Part shown: positions 3,343 to 31,631 of the stretch, piece after piece
How the letters are laid out: every line of letters starts with the position of its first letter
Numbering within the stretch: position 1 is the first letter of the stretch
Assembly (NCBI RefSeq): GCF_040496035.1
Contig: NZ_JBEPJZ010000001.1
Location: forward strand, 2,542,001-2,606,000
Direction: 5' to 3'
Source: Agromyces sp. SYSU T00194
GTDB taxonomy: Bacteria > Actinomycetota > Actinomycetes > Actinomycetales > Microbacteriaceae
DNA: 64,000 nucleotides
Notes under the pieces: generated by a model
The model's input: only the letters and a program-made list of their open reading frames with translations
Told to the model about the DNA's origin: nothing
Database searches by the model: none
Translations under genes and position numbers: made by a program

Positions 3343-4547
<1,205 letters not shown>

Positions 4548-4548
<1 letters not shown>

Positions 4549-5567
4549 TGCCCGTCGGACTCGACGTGATCGCGCTGCACCGCCACTTCTCGCAGCACCT
4601 GCCGGGCTACAACGGCGGGCTCAACGCCCGGCTCGTCTCCGGGGGGAAGTCGAATCTCACCTACCGGCTGAGCGACGGCGTCCACGACTGGGTGCTGCGC
4701 CGCCCGCCGCTCGGTCCCCTCACCCCGAGCGCGCACGACATGGTGCGCGAGTACCGCGTCATGGACGCGCTCCAGGACACGCCGGTGCCGGTGCCCGGCA
4801 CGCGCCTGCTCTGCCGCGACGAGTCGGTGCTCGGCGTGCCCTTCCTCGTCGTCGACTACGTCGAGGGGCGCACGCTGCGCAGCCATGCGGAGCTCGGGGC
4901 GCTCTCGAGCGCCGACCAGGCCGCGCTGGGCGATGAGCTCGCCGACCGCCTCGCCGCGCTGCACCGCGTCGACCCGATCGCCGTCGGCCTCGCCGACTTC
5001 GGTCGCCCCGCGGGCTACCTCGGGCGGCAGTTGCGCCGGTGGTCCGACCAGTGGTCCCGGGTCCGCACCCGCGAGTCGGCCGACTTCGAGCGCCTCGCGG
5101 TCCTGCTGGCCGATGCGCTGCCGCAGGAGTCGGGAGCGACGATCGTGCACGGCGACTACCGCATCGACAACGTCCTCGTGGCGCCCGACGCGCCGCGGAT
5201 CGAGGCGATCGTCGACTGGGAGCTGTCCACGCTCGGGGACCCGCTCGCGGACCTCGCGATGACGCTCGTCTACTGGGAACCGCTCACCGAGCCGGTGCTC
5301 GGCGTGCCGCACGTGCGCGGCGGGCCGAATGCACTGCCGTCGCCGGCCGCGTTCCTCGACCGCTACGCGCGCGGCCGGGACCTCCCCGACCTCGAGCCGT
5401 ACCTGGCGCTCGCGGCGCTGAAGCTCGCGGTGATCGCCGAGGGCATCCACTCGCGCTTCCTCGCCGGGAGCACGGTCGGCTCGGGCTTCGAGACCGCCGG
5501 GAGCGCCGTGGAGCCGCTCCTCGCCTACGGGCTCGGCCAGCTCGCCCCGGCCCGGGCGGCACGCTGA
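4548..5567 (+). CDS. APH-family phosphotransferase, candidate hydroxyacyl-CoA kinase
   Basis: This 339-residue protein has the aminoglycoside/choline kinase fold. The N-lobe has SGGKSNLTYRL near residue 38. The catalytic loop is VHGDYRIDNVL near residue 200, and the metal-binding DW follows in IVDWELSTLGDPLADL. This is the sub-family fused to acyl-CoA dehydrogenase in ACAD10/11, and related to LvaA of levulinate degradation, which phosphorylates 4-hydroxyacyl-CoA. It overlaps the upstream dehydrogenase by 1 nt and the downstream SDR by 1 nt, so all three are probably translated together. An antibiotic-resistance role is unlikely in this setting. The exact substrate is inferred. Confidence 0.82.
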
Positions 5568-6295
5568 TGCGCGCGGCGATCGTGACCGGCGGCTCCCGCG
5601 GCATCGGCCTCGCGATCACCCGTCGGCTGGCAGCCGACGGGTACGCGGTGACCATCACCGGCCGCGACCGGGCGGGGCTCGAGCGCGCCGCCGCGCAGGT
5701 GCGCGACGAACTCGGGACGCCGGTCGTCGGCGTCCCGGCCGACCTCGCCGACGAGGCGGCGGTCGACGCGCTCGTGCCCGCCCACCTCGAGCGGTTCGGG
5801 CGCCTCGACCACCTCGTGCTGAACGCGGGCATGGGCAAGGGCAGCCCGATCGCCGAGACGCCCCTGCGCCGGCTCGACCTGCACTACGCCGTCAACCTGC
5901 GCAGCACGTTCGCCCTGGTCTCGCAGGCGATCCCGCCGCTGCGTCGGGCCGCCGAGGAGCACGGCAGCGCACGCGTGGTCGCGATCGCGTCGATGACGGC
6001 CCTCGTGGCGGAGGCGGGGCTGGCCGCGTACGGCGCGACGAAGGCCGCGATCGTGTCCCTGTGCGAGGCGCTCACCCAGGAGGAGTACGCCGCGGGCGTG
6101 CTCGCCACCGCGATCTGCCCGGGCTACGTCGACACCGACATGGCCGCCTGGAAGCACGACGCGGTCCCCGCCGACGAGATGATCCGGCCCGATGACGTCG
6201 CGGAGCTCGCGATGTCGGTGCTGCGGCTCTCCCGCACCGCGGTGGTGCCGACGCTCGCGGTGGTGCGACCGGGGCCGGAGCTCTGGCGGGCCTGA
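5567..6295 (+). CDS. Short-chain dehydrogenase/reductase
   Basis: This is a 242-residue classical SDR. It has the Rossmann motif TGGSRGIG at residues 8-15, NAG near residue 86 and the catalytic pair in YGATK (Tyr and Lys) near residue 148, followed by PGYVDTDMA. An NADP(H) preference is suggested by the TGGSRGIG loop and by TGRDR after strand 2. It is the last gene of the dehydrogenase, kinase, SDR operon, starting inside the kinase stop codon. In that setting it may interconvert a keto- and a hydroxyacyl-CoA, which is inference. A terminator hairpin begins within its last codons. Confidence 0.88.
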   Translation: MRAAIVTGGSRGIGLAITRRLAADGYAVTITGRDRAGLERAAAQVRDELGTPVVGVPADLADEAAVDALVPAHLERFGRLDHLVLNAGMGKGSPIAETPLRRLDLHYAVNLRSTFALVSQAIPPLRRAAEEHGSARVVAIASMTALVAEAGLAAYGATKAAIVSLCEALTQEEYAAGVLATAICPGYVDTDMAAWKHDAVPADEMIRPDDVAELAMSVLRLSRTAVVPTLAVVRPGPELWRA

Positions 6296-6304
6296 GCTCC
6301 GGCC
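6273..6304. terminator. Bidirectional terminator between SDR and prpC
   Basis: The perfect 11-bp arms GGCCGGAGCTC and GAGCTCCGGCC are separated by 10 nt. The hairpin spans the SDR stop codon and lies 10 nt before the convergent prpC stop. There is no T-run, which is common for actinobacterial terminators. Confidence 0.65.
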
Positions 6305-6314
6305 ACCGGGCGGC

Positions 6315-7448
6315 TCAGACCGCGACGGCCTGCGGCAGGTGCCGCTGCTCCGGGCCGTCGTAGGCCGAGAGCGGGCGGATCAGCGCGTTCGCCGCCGCCT
6401 GCTCCATGATGTGGGCGGTCCAGCCCATCACCCGGCTGGCGACGAACAGCGGCGTGAACGTCGGGGTGTCGAAGCCGAGCAGGTGGTAGGCCGGCCCGCT
6501 CGGGTAGTCGAGGTTCGGCAGGATGCCCTTGCGCTCGGCCATGGCGTCGCCCAGCGTGTCGTAGAGCGCGAGCATGTCGTCGCGTCCGCGCTCGGCGATG
6601 AGTCGGTCGAGCGCAGCCTTCATGGTCGGAACGCGCGAGTCGCCGTTCTTGTAGACGCGGTGCCCGAAGCCCATGATCTTGCGCTTGCTCGCGAGGGCGT
6701 CCTCGAGCCAGGCCACGGCCGCCGAGGCGTCGCCGATCTCGTCGAACATGTGCATGACCGCCTCGTTCGCGCCGCCGTGCAGCGGGCCCTTGAGCGCGCC
6801 GACGGCAGCGACGACCGCCGAGTGCAGGTCGCTCATGGTCGAGGTGACCACGCGCGCCGTGAACGTCGAGGCGTTGAACGAGTGCTCGGCGTAGAGCACC
6901 ATCGACACCCGGAAGACGTCGACCTCGGCCTCGGTGAGCTCGGTGCCGAAGGTCATCCAGAGCAGGTTCGCCGAGTAGTCGAGGTCGTCGCGCGGAGCGA
7001 TCTCCTCGAGGCCGTGGCGGCGGCGCTGGTCGAGGGCGACCATGGCGGGCACCGCCGCGAACAGGCGCTTGGCCTTGCGCAGGTCGGCCTCCGGTGAGGC
7101 ATCCGCCGTGTCGGGGTCGATCTCGCCGTGCACGCTGATCGCGGTGCGCAGCACGTCCATCGGGTGCGCCGTGACGGGGGCGCGGGTGATCGCGTCGCGC
7201 ACCTGGGGTGCGAGGGCACGCCCGGCGCGCTCCTCGGCCTCGAACGCGGCGAGCTCCTCGGGAGCCGGCAGCTCGCCGTTCCAGAGCAGCAGCGCGACCT
7301 CCTCGACCGAGCAGTGCTCGGCGAGCTCCTGCACCGGGTACCCCCGGTACAGCAGCGAGTTGGTGGCGGGGTTCACCTTCGAGATCGCCGTCGTGTCGAC
7401 GACGACCCCGGCGAGTCCCTTCCGGATCTCGGGTGCGGTGTCGGTCAT
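6315..7448 (-). CDS. prpC: 2-methylcitrate synthase
   Basis: This 377-residue citrate-synthase-family enzyme would condense propionyl-CoA with oxaloacetate. Active-site segments are GPLHGGANEAV (His), MGFGHRVYKNGDSR (His, Arg) and FNASTFTARV. The N-terminus IRKGLAGVVVDTTAISKVN is typical of PrpC/CitZ-type enzymes in prp operons. It follows prpB with a 4-nt ATGA overlap, so the methylcitrate role rests on both sequence and operon. Side activity as a citrate synthase is usual in the family. It ends against the SDR terminator hairpin. Confidence 0.93.
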   Translation of the reverse strand: MTDTAPEIRKGLAGVVVDTTAISKVNPATNSLLYRGYPVQELAEHCSVEEVALLLWNGELPAPEELAAFEAEERAGRALAPQVRDAITRAPVTAHPMDVLRTAISVHGEIDPDTADASPEADLRKAKRLFAAVPAMVALDQRRRHGLEEIAPRDDLDYSANLLWMTFGTELTEAEVDVFRVSMVLYAEHSFNASTFTARVVTSTMSDLHSAVVAAVGALKGPLHGGANEAVMHMFDEIGDASAAVAWLEDALASKRKIMGFGHRVYKNGDSRVPTMKAALDRLIAERGRDDMLALYDTLGDAMAERKGILPNLDYPSGPAYHLLGFDTPTFTPLFVASRVMGWTAHIMEQAAANALIRPLSAYDGPEQRHLPQAVAV

Positions 7449-8404
7449 GCGTGCTCCTTTCGTCGGGGCTCCGCGTCCTCGCGGGGCGCCAGGTCGTCTG
7501 CCGCGCCCGGCACGTCGAAGGCGAAGACCTCCTCGTCGAACCGGGCGTAGTCGGCGTACTCGTTGAGTTCGTACAGGCGTGCGCGGGTCTGCATGCGCGG
7601 CACCGCGTTCGTGAGGCTCCCCTCGGCGGCCAGCTGGCGCAGGCTCCGCTCCGCCTCGCCCATCGCGAGGCGCAGCAGCGAGACGGGGTGGATCACGAGG
7701 TCGACGCCCACGGCCTCGAGCTGGGCGGCGGTGAACAGCGGGCTCTTGCCGAACTCGGTCATGTTGGCGAGGATCGGCACGTCGACCGCGGCGCGCATGG
7801 CCGCGAACTCGTCGAGGTCGGCCATCGCCTCGGGGAAGATCGCGTCGGCGCCCGCGTCGACGAGCGCCTTGGCGCGCTCGGTCGCGGCACCCAGGCCCGC
7901 GACGCCGCGCACGTCGGTGCGCGCCATGATCACGAGGTCGGGGTCGCGACGGGCGTCGACGGCGGCACGGATGCGCCGGAGCGCCGTCGCGTCGTCGACG
8001 ACGTCCTTGCCGTCGAGGTGCCCGCACCGCTTGGGGTTCACCTGGTCCTCGATGTGCAGGGCCGAGATGCCGGCGTCCTCGATCATCTGCACCGTGCGCG
8101 CGACGTTCATCGGCTCGCCGAATCCGGTGTCGGCGTCGATGAGCGTGGGCAGGTCGGTGACGCGGGCGATCTGCGCGCCGCGACCGGCGACCTCGGTCAG
8201 CGTCGTCAGCCCGATGTCGGGCAGGCCCAGGTCGGCGCTGAGGACGGCCCCGGAGATGTAGACGCCCTCGAAGCCGACGTCCTCGATGAGCCGCGCGGAG
8301 AGCGGATTGAACGCCCCGGGCATCCGCACGATCCTCGGGCCCGCGAGGGCCTCGCGGAACCGTCGCCGCTTCTCGGTGGGCGTGACCTTCGAGTGGAGCA
8401 CCAT
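7445..8404 (-). CDS. prpB: 2-methylisocitrate lyase
   Basis: This lyase cleaves 2-methylisocitrate to pyruvate and succinate in the methylcitrate cycle. It has 319 residues. The hallmark KRCGH loop with the catalytic cysteine is near residue 125, and metal-binding residues lie in LIDADTGFGEP and in ALHIEDQ. The start at 8404 reads [15 protein letters not shown] and shares one base with the prpD stop codon. The 3' end overlaps prpC by 4 nt. Oxaloacetate hydrolase or other isocitrate-lyase-superfamily activity is possible in isolation, but the operon makes PrpB by far the best reading. Confidence 0.95.
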   Translation of the reverse strand: MVLHSKVTPTEKRRRFREALAGPRIVRMPGAFNPLSARLIEDVGFEGVYISGAVLSADLGLPDIGLTTLTEVAGRGAQIARVTDLPTLIDADTGFGEPMNVARTVQMIEDAGISALHIEDQVNPKRCGHLDGKDVVDDATALRRIRAAVDARRDPDLVIMARTDVRGVAGLGAATERAKALVDAGADAIFPEAMADLDEFAAMRAAVDVPILANMTEFGKSPLFTAAQLEAVGVDLVIHPVSLLRLAMGEAERSLRQLAAEGSLTNAVPRMQTRARLYELNEYADYARFDEEVFAFDVPGAADDLAPREDAEPRRKEHA

Positions 8405-25607: not shown

Positions 25608-25673
25608 GGAAGCGCTGCATGTGTTGCTGCGCGGGCGAACCGGGCGTACCGTGGAGGAGTCGGAAGGAGCGTG

Positions 25674-26618
25674 ATGGTCGAGACCGACGAACTCCTCTCG
25701 ATCCGTGCGGCGGAGCTCTACTACGAGGAGAACAAGACCCAGGACGAGATCGGGCAGGCACTGCACCTCACCCGGTGGAAGGTCGGCCGGCTGCTGTCGC
25801 AGGCGAAGGCCAAGGGCTACATCCGCATCGAGATCGTCCATCCGCGCGCCAGGCGCCTGCCGATCGAGCGTCGGCTGCGCGAGGAGCGCGGCCTCGACGA
25901 CGCGATCGTCGTCTCCACCGCCGGGGTCGACGGCCCCGACGAGGTGCAGATCCGCACCGCGCAGGCCGCCGCCGACTACCTGACCGCGCTGCGGCCGGTG
26001 CCGCGCACCCTCGGCGTCAGCTGGGGCCGCACCCTCCACCTGGTCGCGCAGCACCTCCGGCAGGGCTGGGCGTCCGGGGTCAGCGTCGTGCAGATCAACG
26101 GCGGCGTGAGCCTCAACCGGCGTGCCGGCACGGCGGCGGCGACCGCGGTCGCGATCGCGCAGAAGGCCGCAGGCCAGGCGACGCTGCTGCCGAGCCCCGC
26201 GATCCTCGAGCGCATCGAGACGAAGCAGGCCATCGAGTCCGACCGCGTGGTGGCGGGCGTCATCGACCAGGCCCGCTCGGCCGGCGCCTACCTCTTCAGC
26301 GCCGGCGCCGCCGACCACGACTCCGTGCACGTGGAGAGCGGGTACCTGTCGGCGGGCGAGGTCGACGAGCTCGTCCGCAAGGGCGCCGTCGGCGACGTCG
26401 TCGGCCGCTACATCGACCCCGACGGCAACATCGTCGACCCCGCCCTCGACGCCCGCACCGTCGGACTCACCCTCGACGAGCTCCGTGACGCCGACCAGGC
26501 CATCGCGGTGATCGCCGGCCGCAGCAAGCACGCGGTCGCCGACGCGGTCGTCCGCAGCGGCCTCTGCACCGTCCTCGTCACCGACGAGGAGACGGCCCTC
26601 CACATCCTCGACGGCTAG
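25674..26618 (+). CDS. SorC/DeoR-type sugar-binding transcriptional regulator
   Basis: This 314-residue regulator has an N-terminal helix-turn-helix (EENKTQDEIGQALHLTRWKV, residues 19-38) and a large C-terminal SorC sugar-phosphate-binding domain. The latter includes the GVSWGRTL loop near residue 117 and GGVS near 142. Members next to deoC sense deoxyribose 5-phosphate (known for DeoR of Bacillus), which fits the downstream genes. I take ATG 25674 over the adjacent GTG 25671 because of its spacing from AAGGAG. deoC begins 28 nt after its stop. Confidence 0.9.
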   Translation: MVETDELLSIRAAELYYEENKTQDEIGQALHLTRWKVGRLLSQAKAKGYIRIEIVHPRARRLPIERRLREERGLDDAIVVSTAGVDGPDEVQIRTAQAAADYLTALRPVPRTLGVSWGRTLHLVAQHLRQGWASGVSVVQINGGVSLNRRAGTAAATAVAIAQKAAGQATLLPSPAILERIETKQAIESDRVVAGVIDQARSAGAYLFSAGAADHDSVHVESGYLSAGEVDELVRKGAVGDVVGRYIDPDGNIVDPALDARTVGLTLDELRDADQAIAVIAGRSKHAVADAVVRSGLCTVLVTDEETALHILDG

Positions 26619-26646: not shown

Positions 26647-27657
26647 ATGTCCGGTTCCCAGCTCGTGCACCACGCACGCGAGCGCGCCGTCGCCATCCTC
26701 GGCGGCGAGCCCGACGACGCGACCCTGCGCCGCTACCTCCACGGCATCCCCGGCGTCGATGCGGTCGGGCTCGAGCAGCGCGCCGCGTCGCTCGGCACCC
26801 GCTCGATCAAGACCACGTCCAAGGCGTGGGCGATCGACCGCATCATCGAGCTCATCGACCTCACGACGCTCGAGGGCGCCGACACCCCGGGCAAGGTCCG
26901 CTCGCTCGTCGCGAAGGCGCTGCGTCCCGACCCGTCGGAGCCCGGCACGCCGCGCGTCGCCGCCGTGTGCGTGTACGGCGACATGGTGCCGTACGCCGTC
27001 GAGGCCCTCGGCGCGGCCCACGGCGACCCCGACGACGGACTCGTCTCGGTCGCCGCGGTGGCCACCGCGTTCCCGAGCGGCCGCTCGTCGCTCGCGATCA
27101 AGCTCCAGGACACCGCCGACGCCGTCGCCGCGGGCGCCGACGAGATCGACATGGTCATCGACCGCGGCGCGTTCCTCGCGGGGCGCTACGGCCAGGTCTT
27201 CGACGAGATCGTGCGGGTCAAGGAGGCCTGCGCGCGTCCCGACGGCACCTCCGCGTCGCTCAAGGTGATCCTCGAGACCGGCGAGCTGGTGACCTACGAC
27301 AACGTGCGTCGCGCCTCGTGGCTCGCGATCCTCGCCGGCGGCGACTTCATCAAGACGTCGACCGGCAAGGTGCAGCCCGCCGCGACGCTCCCGGTGACGC
27401 TGCTCATGCTCGAGGTCGTCCGCGACTGGTACCGCCTGACCGGCCAGCGCATCGGGGTGAAGCCGGCCGGCGGCATCCGCTCGTCGAAGGACGCGATCAA
27501 GTACCTCGTGACCGTCGCCGAGACCGTGGGCGAGGAGTGGCTGGCGCCGCACCTGTTCCGGTTCGGCGCATCGAGCCTGCTGAACGACATGCTGATGCAG
27601 CGCCGGAAGCTGGCGAGCGGCCACTACTCCGGACCCGACTACCTGACGATCGACTGA
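26647..27657 (+). CDS. deoC: Deoxyribose-phosphate aldolase
   Basis: This class I aldolase splits 2-deoxyribose 5-phosphate into glyceraldehyde 3-phosphate and acetaldehyde. At 336 residues it belongs to the longer DeoC type that is also found in eukaryotes, with about 75 extra N-terminal residues. Active-site lysines lie in SASLKVILETG near residue 206 (Schiff base) and in GVKPAGGIRSSKDA near 275. FIKTSTGK near 235 is conserved. A GAAGGAAG ribosome site precedes ATG 26647. It is followed 11 nt later by two ALDH-family genes, which would take care of the acetaldehyde. Confidence 0.96.
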   Translation: MSGSQLVHHARERAVAILGGEPDDATLRRYLHGIPGVDAVGLEQRAASLGTRSIKTTSKAWAIDRIIELIDLTTLEGADTPGKVRSLVAKALRPDPSEPGTPRVAAVCVYGDMVPYAVEALGAAHGDPDDGLVSVAAVATAFPSGRSSLAIKLQDTADAVAAGADEIDMVIDRGAFLAGRYGQVFDEIVRVKEACARPDGTSASLKVILETGELVTYDNVRRASWLAILAGGDFIKTSTGKVQPAATLPVTLLMLEVVRDWYRLTGQRIGVKPAGGIRSSKDAIKYLVTVAETVGEEWLAPHLFRFGASSLLNDMLMQRRKLASGHYSGPDYLTID

Positions 27658-27668
27658 GGAGTCGAACC

Positions 27669-29186
27669 ATGAGCTTTCTCGAGTACGCGCCGGCTCCCGA
27701 GTCGCGCGCGATCCTGAACCTGCGCGACGCGTACGGCCTGTTCATCGACGGCGAGTTCGTCGACGGCAACGGCACGCCGTTCCAGACGATCTCGCCCGCC
27801 TCCGAGGAGCGGATCGCGACCGTCTCGACCGCCGACGCGGCGGACGTCGACGCGGCCGTGGCCGCCGCGCGCCGCGCGTACCAGCGCACCTGGTCGCGCA
27901 TGTCCGGCCGCGACCGCGGCAAGTACCTGTTCCGCATCGCGCGCCTGCTGCAGGAGCGCGCCCGCGAGCTGGCGGTGGCCGAGAGCCTCGACAACGGCAA
28001 GCCCATCAAGGAGAGCCGCGACGTCGACGTGCCGCTCGTGGCCGCCTGGTTCTTCTACTACGCGGGCTGGGCCGACAAGCTCGACCACGCGGGACTCGGC
28101 GCCGACCCGCGCTCGCTCGGCGTGGCCGCGCAGGTGATCCCGTGGAACTTCCCGCTGCTCATGCTCGCCTGGAAGATCGCGCCCGCCCTCGCGGCCGGCA
28201 ACACGGTCGTGCTGAAGCCGGCGGAGACCACGCCGCTCACGGCGCTCCTGTTCGCCGAGATCGTGCAGCAGGCCGACCTGCCGCCCGGCGTGGTGAACAT
28301 CATCACGGGCGCCGGCGAGACCGGTGCCGCGCTCGTCGCGCACGACGACGTCGACAAGGTCGCCTTCACCGGCTCGACGGGGGTCGGCCGCGCCATCGCG
28401 CGGCAGGTCGCGGGCACGCACAAGAAGGTCACCCTCGAGCTCGGCGGCAAGGCCGCGAACATCGTCTTCGACGACGCGCCCATCGACCAGGCGATCGAGG
28501 GCATCGTCAACGGCATCTTCTTCAACCAGGGCCACGTCTGCTGCGCCGGCAGCCGACTGCTCGTGCAGGAGAACGTGCACGACGAGGTCGTCGAGCGGCT
28601 GAAGGCGCGCCTGTCGACGCTCCGCCTCGGCGACCCGCTCGACAAGAACACCGACATCGGCGCGATCAACTCGCGCGAGCAGCTCGACCGCATCCGCGAG
28701 CTGAGCGCGGCGGGCGAGGCGGAGGGCGCCGAGCGCTGGAGCGCCGACTGCGAGATCCCCGACGAGGGGTTCTGGTTCGCGCCGACCATCTTCACGAACG
28801 TCTCCACGAGCCACCGCATCGCGCGCGAGGAGATCTTCGGACCGGTGCTCTCGGTGCTGACCTTCCGCACGCCGGCCGAGGCGGTTGCGAAGGCGAACAA
28901 CACGCCGTACGGGCTCTCCGCCGGCATCTGGACCGACAAGGGCAGCCGCATCCTCGCGGTCGCCGACAGGCTCCGCGCAGGCGTCGTGTGGGCGAACACG
29001 TTCAACCGGTTCGACCCCGCGAGTCCCTTCGGCGGCTACAAGGAGTCGGGCTACGGCCGCGAGGGCGGCCGCCACGGGCTCGCGGCGTACCTCGCGCCCG
29101 CCGCTCGGGACCGGGCGGCGATCACGCCGCCCGAGGAGCAGCCCGCACGAACGCCCAAGCGCCAGGCGAAGGGAGCGAAGCGATGA
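27669..29186 (+). CDS. Aldehyde dehydrogenase (N-terminal half of a split ALDH16-like pair)
   Basis: This 505-residue NAD(P)-dependent aldehyde dehydrogenase has a full active site. IPWNFPLLM is near residue 156, the catalytic glutamate is in LELGGKAANIVF near 255, and the nucleophilic cysteine is in NQGHVCCAGSRL near 290. It ends with a basic, proline-rich tail. Its stop overlaps the next gene, a shorter ALDH-like protein. The two together add to 791 residues, like ALDH16 with its complete and truncated ALDH domains. In this operon the likely substrate is acetaldehyde from DeoC. GAGGAG precedes the ATG at 27669. Confidence 0.9.
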   Translation: MSFLEYAPAPESRAILNLRDAYGLFIDGEFVDGNGTPFQTISPASEERIATVSTADAADVDAAVAAARRAYQRTWSRMSGRDRGKYLFRIARLLQERARELAVAESLDNGKPIKESRDVDVPLVAAWFFYYAGWADKLDHAGLGADPRSLGVAAQVIPWNFPLLMLAWKIAPALAAGNTVVLKPAETTPLTALLFAEIVQQADLPPGVVNIITGAGETGAALVAHDDVDKVAFTGSTGVGRAIARQVAGTHKKVTLELGGKAANIVFDDAPIDQAIEGIVNGIFFNQGHVCCAGSRLLVQENVHDEVVERLKARLSTLRLGDPLDKNTDIGAINSREQLDRIRELSAAGEAEGAERWSADCEIPDEGFWFAPTIFTNVSTSHRIAREEIFGPVLSVLTFRTPAEAVAKANNTPYGLSAGIWTDKGSRILAVADRLRAGVVWANTFNRFDPASPFGGYKESGYGREGGRHGLAAYLAPAARDRAAITPPEEQPARTPKRQAKGAKR

Positions 29187-30043
29187 GCCGGCTGGCCGTG
29201 CCGAAGACGTACAAGCTCGCGATCGGCGGGAAGTTCCCGCGCAGCGAGTCCGGCCGCACCTACGAGGTGCGCGCCGCCGACGGGTCGTTCCTCGCGAACG
29301 CCGCCAAGGCCTCGCGCAAGGACGCGCGCGACGCGGTCGTCGCGGCGCGCTCCGCGTTGTCCGGCTGGGCGGGTGCGACCGCGTACAACCGCGGCCAGGT
29401 GCTCTACCGCATCGCCGAGCTGCTCGAGGGCCGGCGGGCGCAGTTCGTCGACGAGGTCATGCAGCTCGAGGGCGTCACCCGCGCCGCGGCGACCGCGCAG
29501 GTCGACGAGGCCATCGACCGCTGGGTCTGGTACGCGGGCTGGTCCGACAAGTTCGCCCAGGTGGCCGGCAACGCCAACCCGGTCGCGGGCCCGTACTTCA
29601 ACATCTCGGTGCCCGAGCCGACCGGGGTCGTCGCCGTCGTCGCCCCGCAGGACACGGCCCTGCTCGGCCTGGTCTCGTCCGTCGCGCCCGCGCTCGTCGC
29701 GGGCAACGCCGTGGTCGTGATCGCCAGCGAGCCGTACCCGCTGCCGGCGATCAGCCTCGCCGAGGTGCTCGCCACCAGCGACGTGCCCGGCGGCGTGGTG
29801 AACACGCTCACGGGCTCGCCGGCCGAGATCGCGCCCTGGCTCGCCAGCCACGACGACGTCAACGCCATCGACCTCGTCGGCGCGGGGGCGCTCGACTGGG
29901 TCGACCTCGAGATCGCCGCGGCCGAGACGCTGAAGCGCGTGCTCCGCCCCGAGCAGGGGCCGGATGCCGCCGCGCCGTCGCTCGACCGCATCACCGCGTT
30001 CACCGAGACGAAGACGGTCTGGCACACCAAGAGCATGATCTGA
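29183..30043 (+). CDS. Truncated ALDH-family protein lacking catalytic residues (ALDH16 C-domain-like)
   Basis: This 286-residue protein aligns with the N-terminal, coenzyme-binding part of aldehyde dehydrogenases, with YKLAIGGKFPRSESG, ITGxx-like LTGSPAEIAPW and VSVPEPTGVVAVVAP. It then ends in a short tail instead of the catalytic domain. The glutamate and cysteine motifs are missing, so it cannot be an active dehydrogenase alone. It overlaps the full-length ALDH by 4 nt (ATGA). The pair mirrors the two-domain ALDH16 proteins, whose second domain is truncated in the same way. It probably binds the first protein and shapes the assembly, which is inference. Confidence 0.85.
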   Translation: MSRLAVPKTYKLAIGGKFPRSESGRTYEVRAADGSFLANAAKASRKDARDAVVAARSALSGWAGATAYNRGQVLYRIAELLEGRRAQFVDEVMQLEGVTRAAATAQVDEAIDRWVWYAGWSDKFAQVAGNANPVAGPYFNISVPEPTGVVAVVAPQDTALLGLVSSVAPALVAGNAVVVIASEPYPLPAISLAEVLATSDVPGGVVNTLTGSPAEIAPWLASHDDVNAIDLVGAGALDWVDLEIAAAETLKRVLRPEQGPDAAAPSLDRITAFTETKTVWHTKSMI

Positions 30044-30110
30044 GGTCGCCGGGAATCCGGCCCTCCCGGCGCCGGGCTCACGTAGCGTGGTGAGCCGGGA
30101 GGGGGACGAC

Positions 30111-31631
30111 ATGGGACGACGGGTGCTGGTGACCGGCGCGACCGGCTACATCGGCGGGCGCCTCGCGCCGCGGCTCGCGGCGGCGGGGCACGACGTGCGG
30201 GTGCTGGCGCGCTCGCCGCAGCGGCTGCGCGACGTGCCGTGGGCCGGGGACGTCGAGGTCGTCCAGGGCGACCTGGTCGACGAGGCATCCGTCGCGCGTG
30301 CCTGCGAGGGCGTCGAGGTGCTCTACTACCTCGTGCACTCCATGGGCGGGCGCGGCGACTTCGCCGCGGAGGAGCGGGCGATCGCACGCAACGTGGCGCG
30401 GGCGGCGCGGGCGGCGGGCGTGGAGCGCATCGTCTACCTCGGCGGGCTGCACCCCGACTCCGACCGGCTCTCGCGGCACCTCGCGTCCCGCGTCGAGGTG
30501 GGGGAGATCCTGCTGCACTCCGGCGTGCCGACGATCGTGCTGCAGGCGGGCGTCATCATCGGCTCCGGCTCGACGTCGTTCGAGATGATCCGGCACCTCA
30601 CCGAGGTGCTGCCCTACATGCCCGCGCCGCGCTGGGTGCGCAACCGCATCCAGCCGATCGCGGTGCGCGACGTGCTGCACTACCTGGTGGAGGCGGCCGA
30701 CGTGCCGGGCGCGGTGAACCGCACGTTCGACATCGGCGGACCCGACGTGCACCGGTACGGCCAGCTCATGAACGGGTACGCGGTCGAGGCGGGCCTGCAC
30801 CAGCGGCCCATCGCTGCGCTGCCGGTGCTCACGCCGTACCTCGCGAGCCAGTGGGTGAACCTCGTCACGCCCATCCCGCGACGCCTCGCGGTGCCGATCA
30901 TCGAATCGCTGCAGTTCGAGTGCGTGGCGCGCGAGCACGACATCGACGCGCTCATCCCGCCGCCCGAGGGCGGGCTGACGCCCTACCGCCGGGCGGTGCG
31001 GCTGGCGCTCGAGCGCGAGCGCCGCGGCGACGTCGAGACGAGCTGGCGCAACGCCGAGGTGCTCGGCGCCCCGAGCGACCCGCTGCCGAGCGACCCCGAC
31101 TGGGCGGGCTACACGGTCTACACCGACCTGCGCGAGCGGCGCTCGCCCGCACCCGTCGCTGACCTGTGGGCGGTGATCGAGGGCGTCGGCGGCGAGAACG
31201 GCTGGTACTCCTTCCCGCTCGCCTGGGCGCTGCGGGGCTGGATCGACAAGCTCGTCGGCGGCGTGGGGCTCCGCCGCGGGCGGCGCGACCCCGACGAGCT
31301 GCACCCGGGCGACGCGGTGGACTTCTGGCGGGTCGAGCGCATCGACCGCGGGCGGCTGCTGCGCCTGCGCGCCGAGATGCGACTGCCCGGGCGGGCATGG
31401 CTGGAGATGTCGGCGGAACCCGACGGGGAGGCATCCGTCTACCGCCAGCGCGCGGTGTTCTTCCCCAAGGGGCTGCCCGGCCGGCTGTACTGGTTCGCGA
31501 TCCTGCCGTTCCACGGCGTGATCTTCTCCGGCATGGCGAACCGCATCACGGCGCGGGCGCTCGCCGAGGCGCAGGCGTCGGATGCGCGGGGTCAGGACTC
31601 GACCGCGACCCCGGCCTCCTCCGCGGCCTGA
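30111..31631 (+). CDS. NAD(P)-binding SDR-DUF2867 fusion protein
   Basis: This 506-residue protein has an atypical SDR domain (residues 1-290; [30 protein letters not shown]) fused to a C-terminal DUF2867 domain (about 345-490; [25 protein letters not shown] and [16 protein letters not shown]). The enzymatic SDR tyrosine is replaced, as in NmrA-like regulators. Homologues are widespread in actinobacteria, but their reaction is unknown. ATG 30111 has GGGAGGGG upstream, and a TAGCGT box lies at 30083-30088. Its last 40 bp overlap the end of the convergent macro-domain gene. Confidence 0.85.

Follow-up and report, generated by a model that had tools for sequence, protein, structure and literature searches.

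In a 64,000-nucleotide stretch of DNA from Agromyces sp. SYSU T00194 (contig NZ_JBEPJZ010000001.1; the whole stretch is referred to below as the window), two overlapping aldehyde dehydrogenase (ALDH) genes, here named alpha and beta, lie directly downstream of deoC, the gene for deoxyribose-phosphate aldolase. By homology, the two genes are an ALDH16 in split form. Their products show complementary losses, and we consider it likely that they form an obligate alpha-beta pair, assembled as alpha2-beta2, which oxidizes the acetaldehyde released by DeoC. The features that bear on this proposal are as follows, in window positions.

25671..26618, + strand: SorC/DeoR-type sugar-binding transcriptional regulator (Pfam Sugar-bind, 187.5 bits)
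26647..27657, + strand: deoC, deoxyribose-phosphate aldolase (TIGR00126, 158.7 bits; cut-off 117.3)
27669..29186, + strand: alpha, predicted catalytic subunit of the ALDH, orthologous to the N-terminal part of ALDH16 (PF00171, 547 bits; PDB match; tree)
28056..28148, + strand: shortened stretch of alpha at the site of the ordinary-ALDH oligomerization hairpin (17 residues between anchors against 25–26 in four ordinary ALDHs)
28437..28439, + strand: codon of the catalytic Glu of alpha, residue 257, in LELGGK (read from the sequence)
28539..28541, + strand: codon of the catalytic Cys of alpha, residue 291, in GHVCCAG (read from the sequence)
29183..29186, + strand: ATGA stop-start overlap of alpha and beta (sequence)
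29183..30043, + strand: beta, predicted subunit with no catalytic activity, orthologous to the C-terminal domain of ALDH16 (PDB match; tree; model)
29576..29626, + strand: predicted retained oligomerization hairpin of beta, NPVAGPYFNISVPEPTG (model strands 138–146 and 149–153; span length)
30002..30028, + strand: predicted retained C-terminal oligomerization strand of beta, TETKTVWH region (model strand 274–282; aligned with the ordinary ALDH C-terminus)

The regulator gene and deoC are separated by 28 bases and deoC and alpha by 11 bases, while alpha and beta share a 4-base overlap. The coordinates, the protein sizes (505 and 286 residues), the ATGA junction, and the place directly after deoC had all been given correctly in an initial annotation of this DNA.

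Two proteins with the divided parts of ALDH16

Alpha is a complete ALDH (Pfam Aldedh, 547 bits) ending in a basic tail of about 30 residues. As the initial annotation had stated, it keeps the catalytic Glu and Cys, which are read in the sequence as residues 257 and 291. Both residues were invariant in an alignment of 47 chains (A2), the Cys and Glu motifs were found in 156 of 158 alphas, and motif reading gave KPAE or KPAD in 152 of the 158. The best PDB match of alpha was to residues 11–482 of 6mvr (543 bits), the next other protein scoring 430 bits. Beta matched the Aldedh family with 137 bits, over profile positions 8–216 of 461. The Glu, Cys, and Asn catalytic motifs were not found in any of 165 betas, and the Lys motif was not found in 163 of them. 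The absence of the two catalytic motifs from beta had been noted in the initial annotation, which had described the protein as ending before them; this second part did not hold. The C-terminal end of beta (TAFTETKTVWH) aligns with the oligomerization strand of ordinary ALDHs (KFTELKTIW in E. coli PuuC), and judged by this alignment, beta has an internal deletion of about 200 residues, corresponding to the catalytic domain, and not an early stop.

The best PDB match of beta was the C-domain of Loktanella ALDH16 (6mvr residues 500–762, E 7.6e-56), which scored 193 bits against beta, the next other protein scoring 108. We take the entries 6mvr, 6mvs, 6mvt, and 6mvu to be the ALDH16 of Loktanella sp., and Loktanella is the name given for the ALDH16 structures in the accessible text of PMC8160307. 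Alpha and beta follow each other in the ALDH16 domain order, as had been proposed from the sequence. The predicted structure of beta was of high confidence (predicted local distance difference test score, pLDDT, 92.7; predicted template modeling score, pTM, 0.90), and a Foldseek search with it returned three ALDH16 chains first, with template modeling (TM) scores of 0.90–0.91, the other 47 matches listed scoring at most 0.80. Across 53 split and fused sequences, 27 positions of beta were invariant. The nearest relatives of beta were from Agromyces (92% identical), and the named copies among the matches listed carry general ALDH names alone, such as “aldehyde dehydrogenase family protein”.

The tree analyses gave the same assignment. 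In a quick tree that carried long-branch warnings, six N-halves, comprising alpha and fused ALDH16 proteins, clustered with a support of 96 apart from five other ALDHs, and a branch with a support of 100 had 73 sequences, all betas or fused C-parts, on one side. Alpha also grouped with the ALDH16 N-parts in a second tree with ordinary ALDHs as the outgroup. Grouping with randomly truncated ALDHs, which the initial annotation had named as the outcome that would speak against it, was not observed for beta, which fell with the ALDH16 C-domains (support 100, with the 6mvr C-domain as the top match). Thus, alpha corresponds to the active N-terminal ALDH part of ALDH16, beta corresponds to its C-terminal ALDH-like domain devoid of catalytic residues, and both group with ALDH16 and not with other ALDHs; the single polypeptide of about 770–800 residues is represented here by two genes.

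In ordinary ALDHs, the hairpin and the C-terminal strand of one subunit pack on the partner subunit. In an alignment with E. coli AldB, BetB, and PuuC, alpha and the fused N-parts have a short hairpin stretch and no C-terminal strand, whereas beta and the fused C-domain have the hairpin and the strand but no catalytic domain. The hairpin span was 17 residues in 144 of the 152 alphas measured, including that of the window, with 15, 16, or 18 in five and 24–26 in three. Among the fused N-parts, it was 15 in all 10 from Pseudomonadota and 17 in 18 of 23 actinobacterial ones, the other five having 21–24. In contrast, the span was at least 28 in all 158 betas measured (seven values of 45–46 may reflect misplaced anchors), 25 in eight of eight fused Pseudomonadota C-parts, and 25–26 in four of four ordinary ALDHs, a small control. 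No measurement was obtained from six of 158 alphas, seven of 165 betas, two of 10 fused Pseudomonadota C-parts, and five of nine other ALDHs. The C-terminal strand motif was not found in 151 of 153 complete alphas, the alpha of the window among them, or in any of the 10 fused Pseudomonadota N-parts, and it was present in four of six readable ordinary ALDHs; a separate pattern detected the counterpart of the strand in 159 of 165 betas. The alpha of the window therefore differs from an ordinary homomeric ALDH, which has its own hairpin and C-terminal strand. Because these oligomerization elements are absent from alpha and kept in beta, alpha looks unable to make an ordinary homodimer, and beta would supply the missing part.

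Split and fused forms of the family

To place the split form, we used a set of 396 actinomycetote genomes and a set of the best 80 database loci (the closest loci). Beta or the C-domain was found at 245 bits or more in 84 of the 396 genomes, with the next matches at 110.5 bits or lower. The closest loci comprised 79 split, no fused, and one in which alpha was not found; the 84 genome loci comprised 78 split, no fused, three without an adjacent alpha, and three that run off the contig and are not classifiable. Since none of these 84 was seen fused, fusion is the rarer state in the sampled loci. Split operons of the actinobacterial type were also observed in two contigs of metagenome-assembled genomes, labelled Acidobacteria (L049) and Fimbriimonadaceae (L085), with beta identities of 77% and 72%, reflecting either misbinning or transfer.

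In a plasmid collection searched at E ≤ 1e-24, the fused C-domain matched 158 records and beta 151. The 60 matches listed for each search were all from genera that we presume to belong to Pseudomonadota, except for Nonomuraea and one weak Mycobacterium match. The Nonomuraea record (NZ_LT559118.1, locus L093) is filed as a plasmid; at 11.85 Mb, it is so large that it must be a chromosome.

For the trees, 74 usable split loci were thinned to 39, and 24 fused chains were chosen, of which 22 were used. The combined tree (71 rows) excludes the chains P0122 and P0123, and locus L089 was kept out of the trees and alignments owing to a frame break in the N-part. This locus (positions 4406–7843, Phyllobacterium sp. 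A18/5-2) holds an unannotated fused ALDH16 gene that is open in two frames. The fused Pseudomonadota formed a clade (100/100) set apart from Actinomycetota, while the 22 fused chains of the actinobacterial clade stood at several points among the 39 split loci, with nine changes of state, at least six of which were forced by well-supported branches. With ordinary ALDHs as the outgroup, the root separated the clade of fused Pseudomonadota chains from that of Actinomycetota. Some of the single fused chains may be assembly errors; groups such as P0135–P0152 look genuine, with seven tree rows, long linkers, and clusters of 1–15 members. A further fused chain outside the tree, P0212, is named Nakamurella.

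These data bear on the order of events. The scattered actinobacterial fused chains are read here as repeated fusions, although the count of changes in itself gives no direction; at the root of the family, the split and fused states meet and either may be ancestral, the sampling covering two phyla. It is quite conceivable, and we give it considerable weight while stopping short of favoring it, that ALDH16 was ancestrally a single chain and underwent fission at the base of Actinomycetota, so that the split form is derived and no relic. With the root placed between the fused Pseudomonadota and the Actinomycetota, both polarities cost the same, which leaves room for such a fission. On the other hand, fission does not sit easily with the fused chains scattered among split ones in Actinomycetota, with the reservation that gain and loss are not told apart by the count, and an origin by gene duplication would need a two-gene stage at some point. 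As a tentative alternative, the pair may be a living relic of a two-subunit alpha2-beta2 stage, in which a duplicated ALDH divided the catalytic and oligomerization parts between its copies, was kept for the oxidation of DNA-derived acetaldehyde, and was later fused several times, once toward Pseudomonadota and perhaps toward animal ALDH16A1. The split form also suggests how a homo-oligomer could become a pseudo-dimer, through the complementary loss of domains and the fusion of genes on repeated occasions.

Linkage to deoC and the candidate substrate

The initial annotation had proposed a survey of gene order, and its expectation was borne out. In 79 of the closest 80 loci, deoC preceded beta in the same orientation, and alpha was found between the two in 78 of these. 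In the 84 genome loci, deoC was upstream on the same strand in 73; eight stretches, one of them the window’s own short copy (L001), were too short, and three had room but no deoC. The deoC match ended within 350 bases of that of alpha in 78 of 78 closest loci and 63 of 71 genome loci in which both genes were present, and 0.5–1.9 kilobases (kb) ahead of alpha in the remaining eight. In Pseudomonadota, the single fused gene stood directly 3′ of deoC in all 11 loci opened, which were hand-picked from match lists and not random (Phyllobacterium two, one of them frame-broken; Sinorhizobium; Caballeronia; Paracoccus two; Nitratireductor; Pacificitalea; Agrobacterium; Pseudochrobactrum; Shinella). 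The linkage to deoC is not due to chance.

Other neighbors were less constant. Of the 75 closest loci with sufficient upstream sequence, 54 carry a homologue of the regulator immediately 5′ of deoC in the same orientation. The operon is likely controlled by this SorC/DeoR-type protein, which in the window scored 231 bits against the NCBIfam DeoR model NF053881, under the cut-off of 420. A regulator of the window type was not found upstream of deoC in six distant actinomycetote loci or in nine of the 11 Pseudomonadota loci; the other two carry it, as the gene adjoining deoC on its 5′ side in Phyllobacterium zundukense and as the second gene upstream in Shinella. Downstream of the operon, a gene for an NAD(P)-binding epimerase-like protein with DUF2867 (30087–31631) starts 43 bases past beta. 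Such a gene is just 3′ of the operon in only 18 of 74 close loci with room, and it is thus no fixed part of the operon.

Domain scans of distant loci took in L216, L218, and L219 and left out L217 and L220. In L218 (genome G001), the operon faces genes for a PnrA-type nucleoside transporter, a cytidine deaminase, a pyrimidine nucleoside phosphorylase, and a PNP/UDP phosphorylase. Two of the five proteins tested in L219 (G214) were a pyrimidine phosphorylase and an adenosine deaminase. DeoC was one of the five tested in L216, a locus probably from Streptomyces, and none of the other four was of nucleoside type. Taken together, the gene neighborhoods provide strong evidence for a role in deoxyribonucleoside breakdown. 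DeoC cleaves deoxyribose-5-phosphate, which stems from DNA nucleosides, to yield glyceraldehyde-3-phosphate together with acetaldehyde; the release of acetaldehyde by DeoC is described in the accessible text of PMC6365646. Because of this release, and because the ALDH adjoins deoC in a conserved linkage with nucleoside genes nearby, we propose acetaldehyde as the substrate. Alpha-beta would then be a natural sink for it, presumably converting it to acetate with oxidized nicotinamide adenine dinucleotide (NAD+).

ALDHs are often broad in substrate, and several of the fused loci also hold ribokinase-like, epimerase, and sugar transport genes, so that another aldehyde could be the main substrate and the deoC linkage could reflect a wider nucleoside or sugar regulon. 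We regard this as unlikely, because deoC is the direct upstream neighbor in every Pseudomonadota locus opened and usually in Actinomycetota, and because acetaldehyde is the aldehyde product of DeoC that glycolysis does not take.

Proposed pairing of the two proteins and comparison with known systems

In a strict search, alpha was found in 82 of the 396 genomes; 81 carried both genes, one alpha only, and three beta only, and all four unpaired copies (G135, G211, G267, and G287) were at contig edges. The overlap of alpha and beta was 4 bases in 75 of 79 closest split loci. In the 78 genome split loci, the gap was −8 in 16, −4 in 25, −1 in nine, and 0 or more in 18, so that 50 had overlaps of 8, 4, or 1 bases, which are typical of coupled genes; nine loci with gaps of −152 to −1226, in which the start or the end of alpha was probably mispicked, were counted as split by frame. 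In three loci, alpha and beta are on the same strand 1–2 kb apart with other genes between them, namely an ECF-sigma-like pair (L124, 1454–3566), a metallophosphoesterase-like open reading frame (L133, 2991–3959), and a VapBC-like pair (L200, 3196–3866), all named by reading the translations. The separation by other genes indicates that beta is a translation unit of its own in these loci. Pairwise distances in 68 loci correlated with r of 0.80 for alpha and beta, 0.77 for alpha and DeoC, and 0.73 for beta and DeoC; the value for alpha and beta is merely slightly higher, and we draw no evidence of contact from it.

The separate loci, together with a beta model in which most of the ALDH fold apart from the catalytic domain is preserved, would also suit a reading in which alpha needs no partner for its activity and beta serves in regulation or as a scaffold, as a protein in its own right and no structural half of the enzyme. 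This appears rather improbable to us, as most alphas are devoid of the hairpin and C-terminal strand of ordinary ALDHs, the co-occurrence of the two genes is near-perfect, and several apparent natural fusions exist. That the split is only apparent, with a frameshift, a sequencing error, or programmed frameshifting at ATGA giving one chain, is highly improbable. Two database chains, P0122 and P0124, do resemble frame-error fusions, but the frame of the gap varies across the 78 genome split loci and other genes stand between alpha and beta in three of the 84. P0122 resembles a natural fusion of a near relative, but its alignment to alpha stops at residue 458; its model was poor (TM 0.52–0.55), did not reproduce the ALDH16 arrangement, and speaks neither for nor against the pair. 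P0124, which is entered under the insect Bradysia odoriphaga, shares 97% identity with alpha and 92% with beta of Microbacterium loci and is likely bacterial contamination with a frame error. Decay of beta as a truncated ALDH copy with no function, to which its missing catalytic motifs might point, is hardly credible given the wide drop in score below the 84 genomes that carry it, its invariant positions, its retention in the three loci despite unrelated intervening genes, and the finding of alpha without beta in only one of the 82 genomes that have alpha, where the copy lies at a contig edge.

We therefore return to the obligate pair. In this proposal, alpha would contribute the NAD-binding and catalytic domains, having lost its own hairpin and C-terminal strand, and beta would be a dead ALDH that retains the oligomerization elements but has lost the catalytic domain along with key residues of the cofactor site and the active site. 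Coupled translation through the stop-start overlap would probably yield the products at about 1:1, and the two proteins may together mimic an ordinary ALDH dimer. The ALDH16 structure was reportedly described by Liu and Tanner in 2019. According to the accessible text of PMC8160307, two chains of a fused ALDH16 imitate the classical tetramer in the crystal, and by analogy, an alpha2-beta2 assembly could do the same.

Few ALDH classes are as poorly understood as ALDH16. In the split form, the catalytic and dead halves can be made, deleted, and mixed apart, which renders the role of the dead domain directly testable. The linkage to deoC, conserved in two phyla, points to a concrete candidate role for bacterial ALDH16, the removal of acetaldehyde from deoxyribonucleoside breakdown. 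The two-gene arrangement after deoC suggests both the purpose of bacterial ALDH16 and a possible origin of the single-chain form. Neither a split ALDH16 nor an ALDH16 with deoC was mentioned in the titles and abstract openings of the open-licence matches listed.

Among known systems, the kinase/aldolase deoxyribose pathway (deoK, deoC; Price et al. 2019, PMC6365646) shares the DeoC step giving acetaldehyde, whereas its accessible text names no dedicated acetaldehyde dehydrogenase, and its main text has no word beginning with “aldehyde”. Human ALDH16A1 shares the family name and the two-part layout, as known here from its description; unlike the alpha of the window, which has Cys291, it is a pseudoenzyme with no catalytic Cys according to the accessible text of PMC8160307. 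Ordinary ALDHs such as E. coli AldB, BetB, and PuuC share the fold and catalytic residues of alpha and, apart from the catalytic domain, the fold of beta, but they are encoded by one gene and form identical subunits that each have catalytic and oligomerization parts. The ALDH16 of Loktanella is the closest solved relative of both proteins and has the same domain order, with a catalytic part and a dead C-domain, but its PDB entry has a single 767-residue chain where the window has two proteins from two genes. Finally, the fused ALDH16 proteins of Sinorhizobium, Agrobacterium, Caballeronia, Paracoccus, and other Pseudomonadota, several of which adjoin sugar transport and kinase genes, are single chains of 772–799 residues in a separate sister clade, yet they likewise follow deoC directly and divide the hairpin and strand between their two parts as alpha and beta do.

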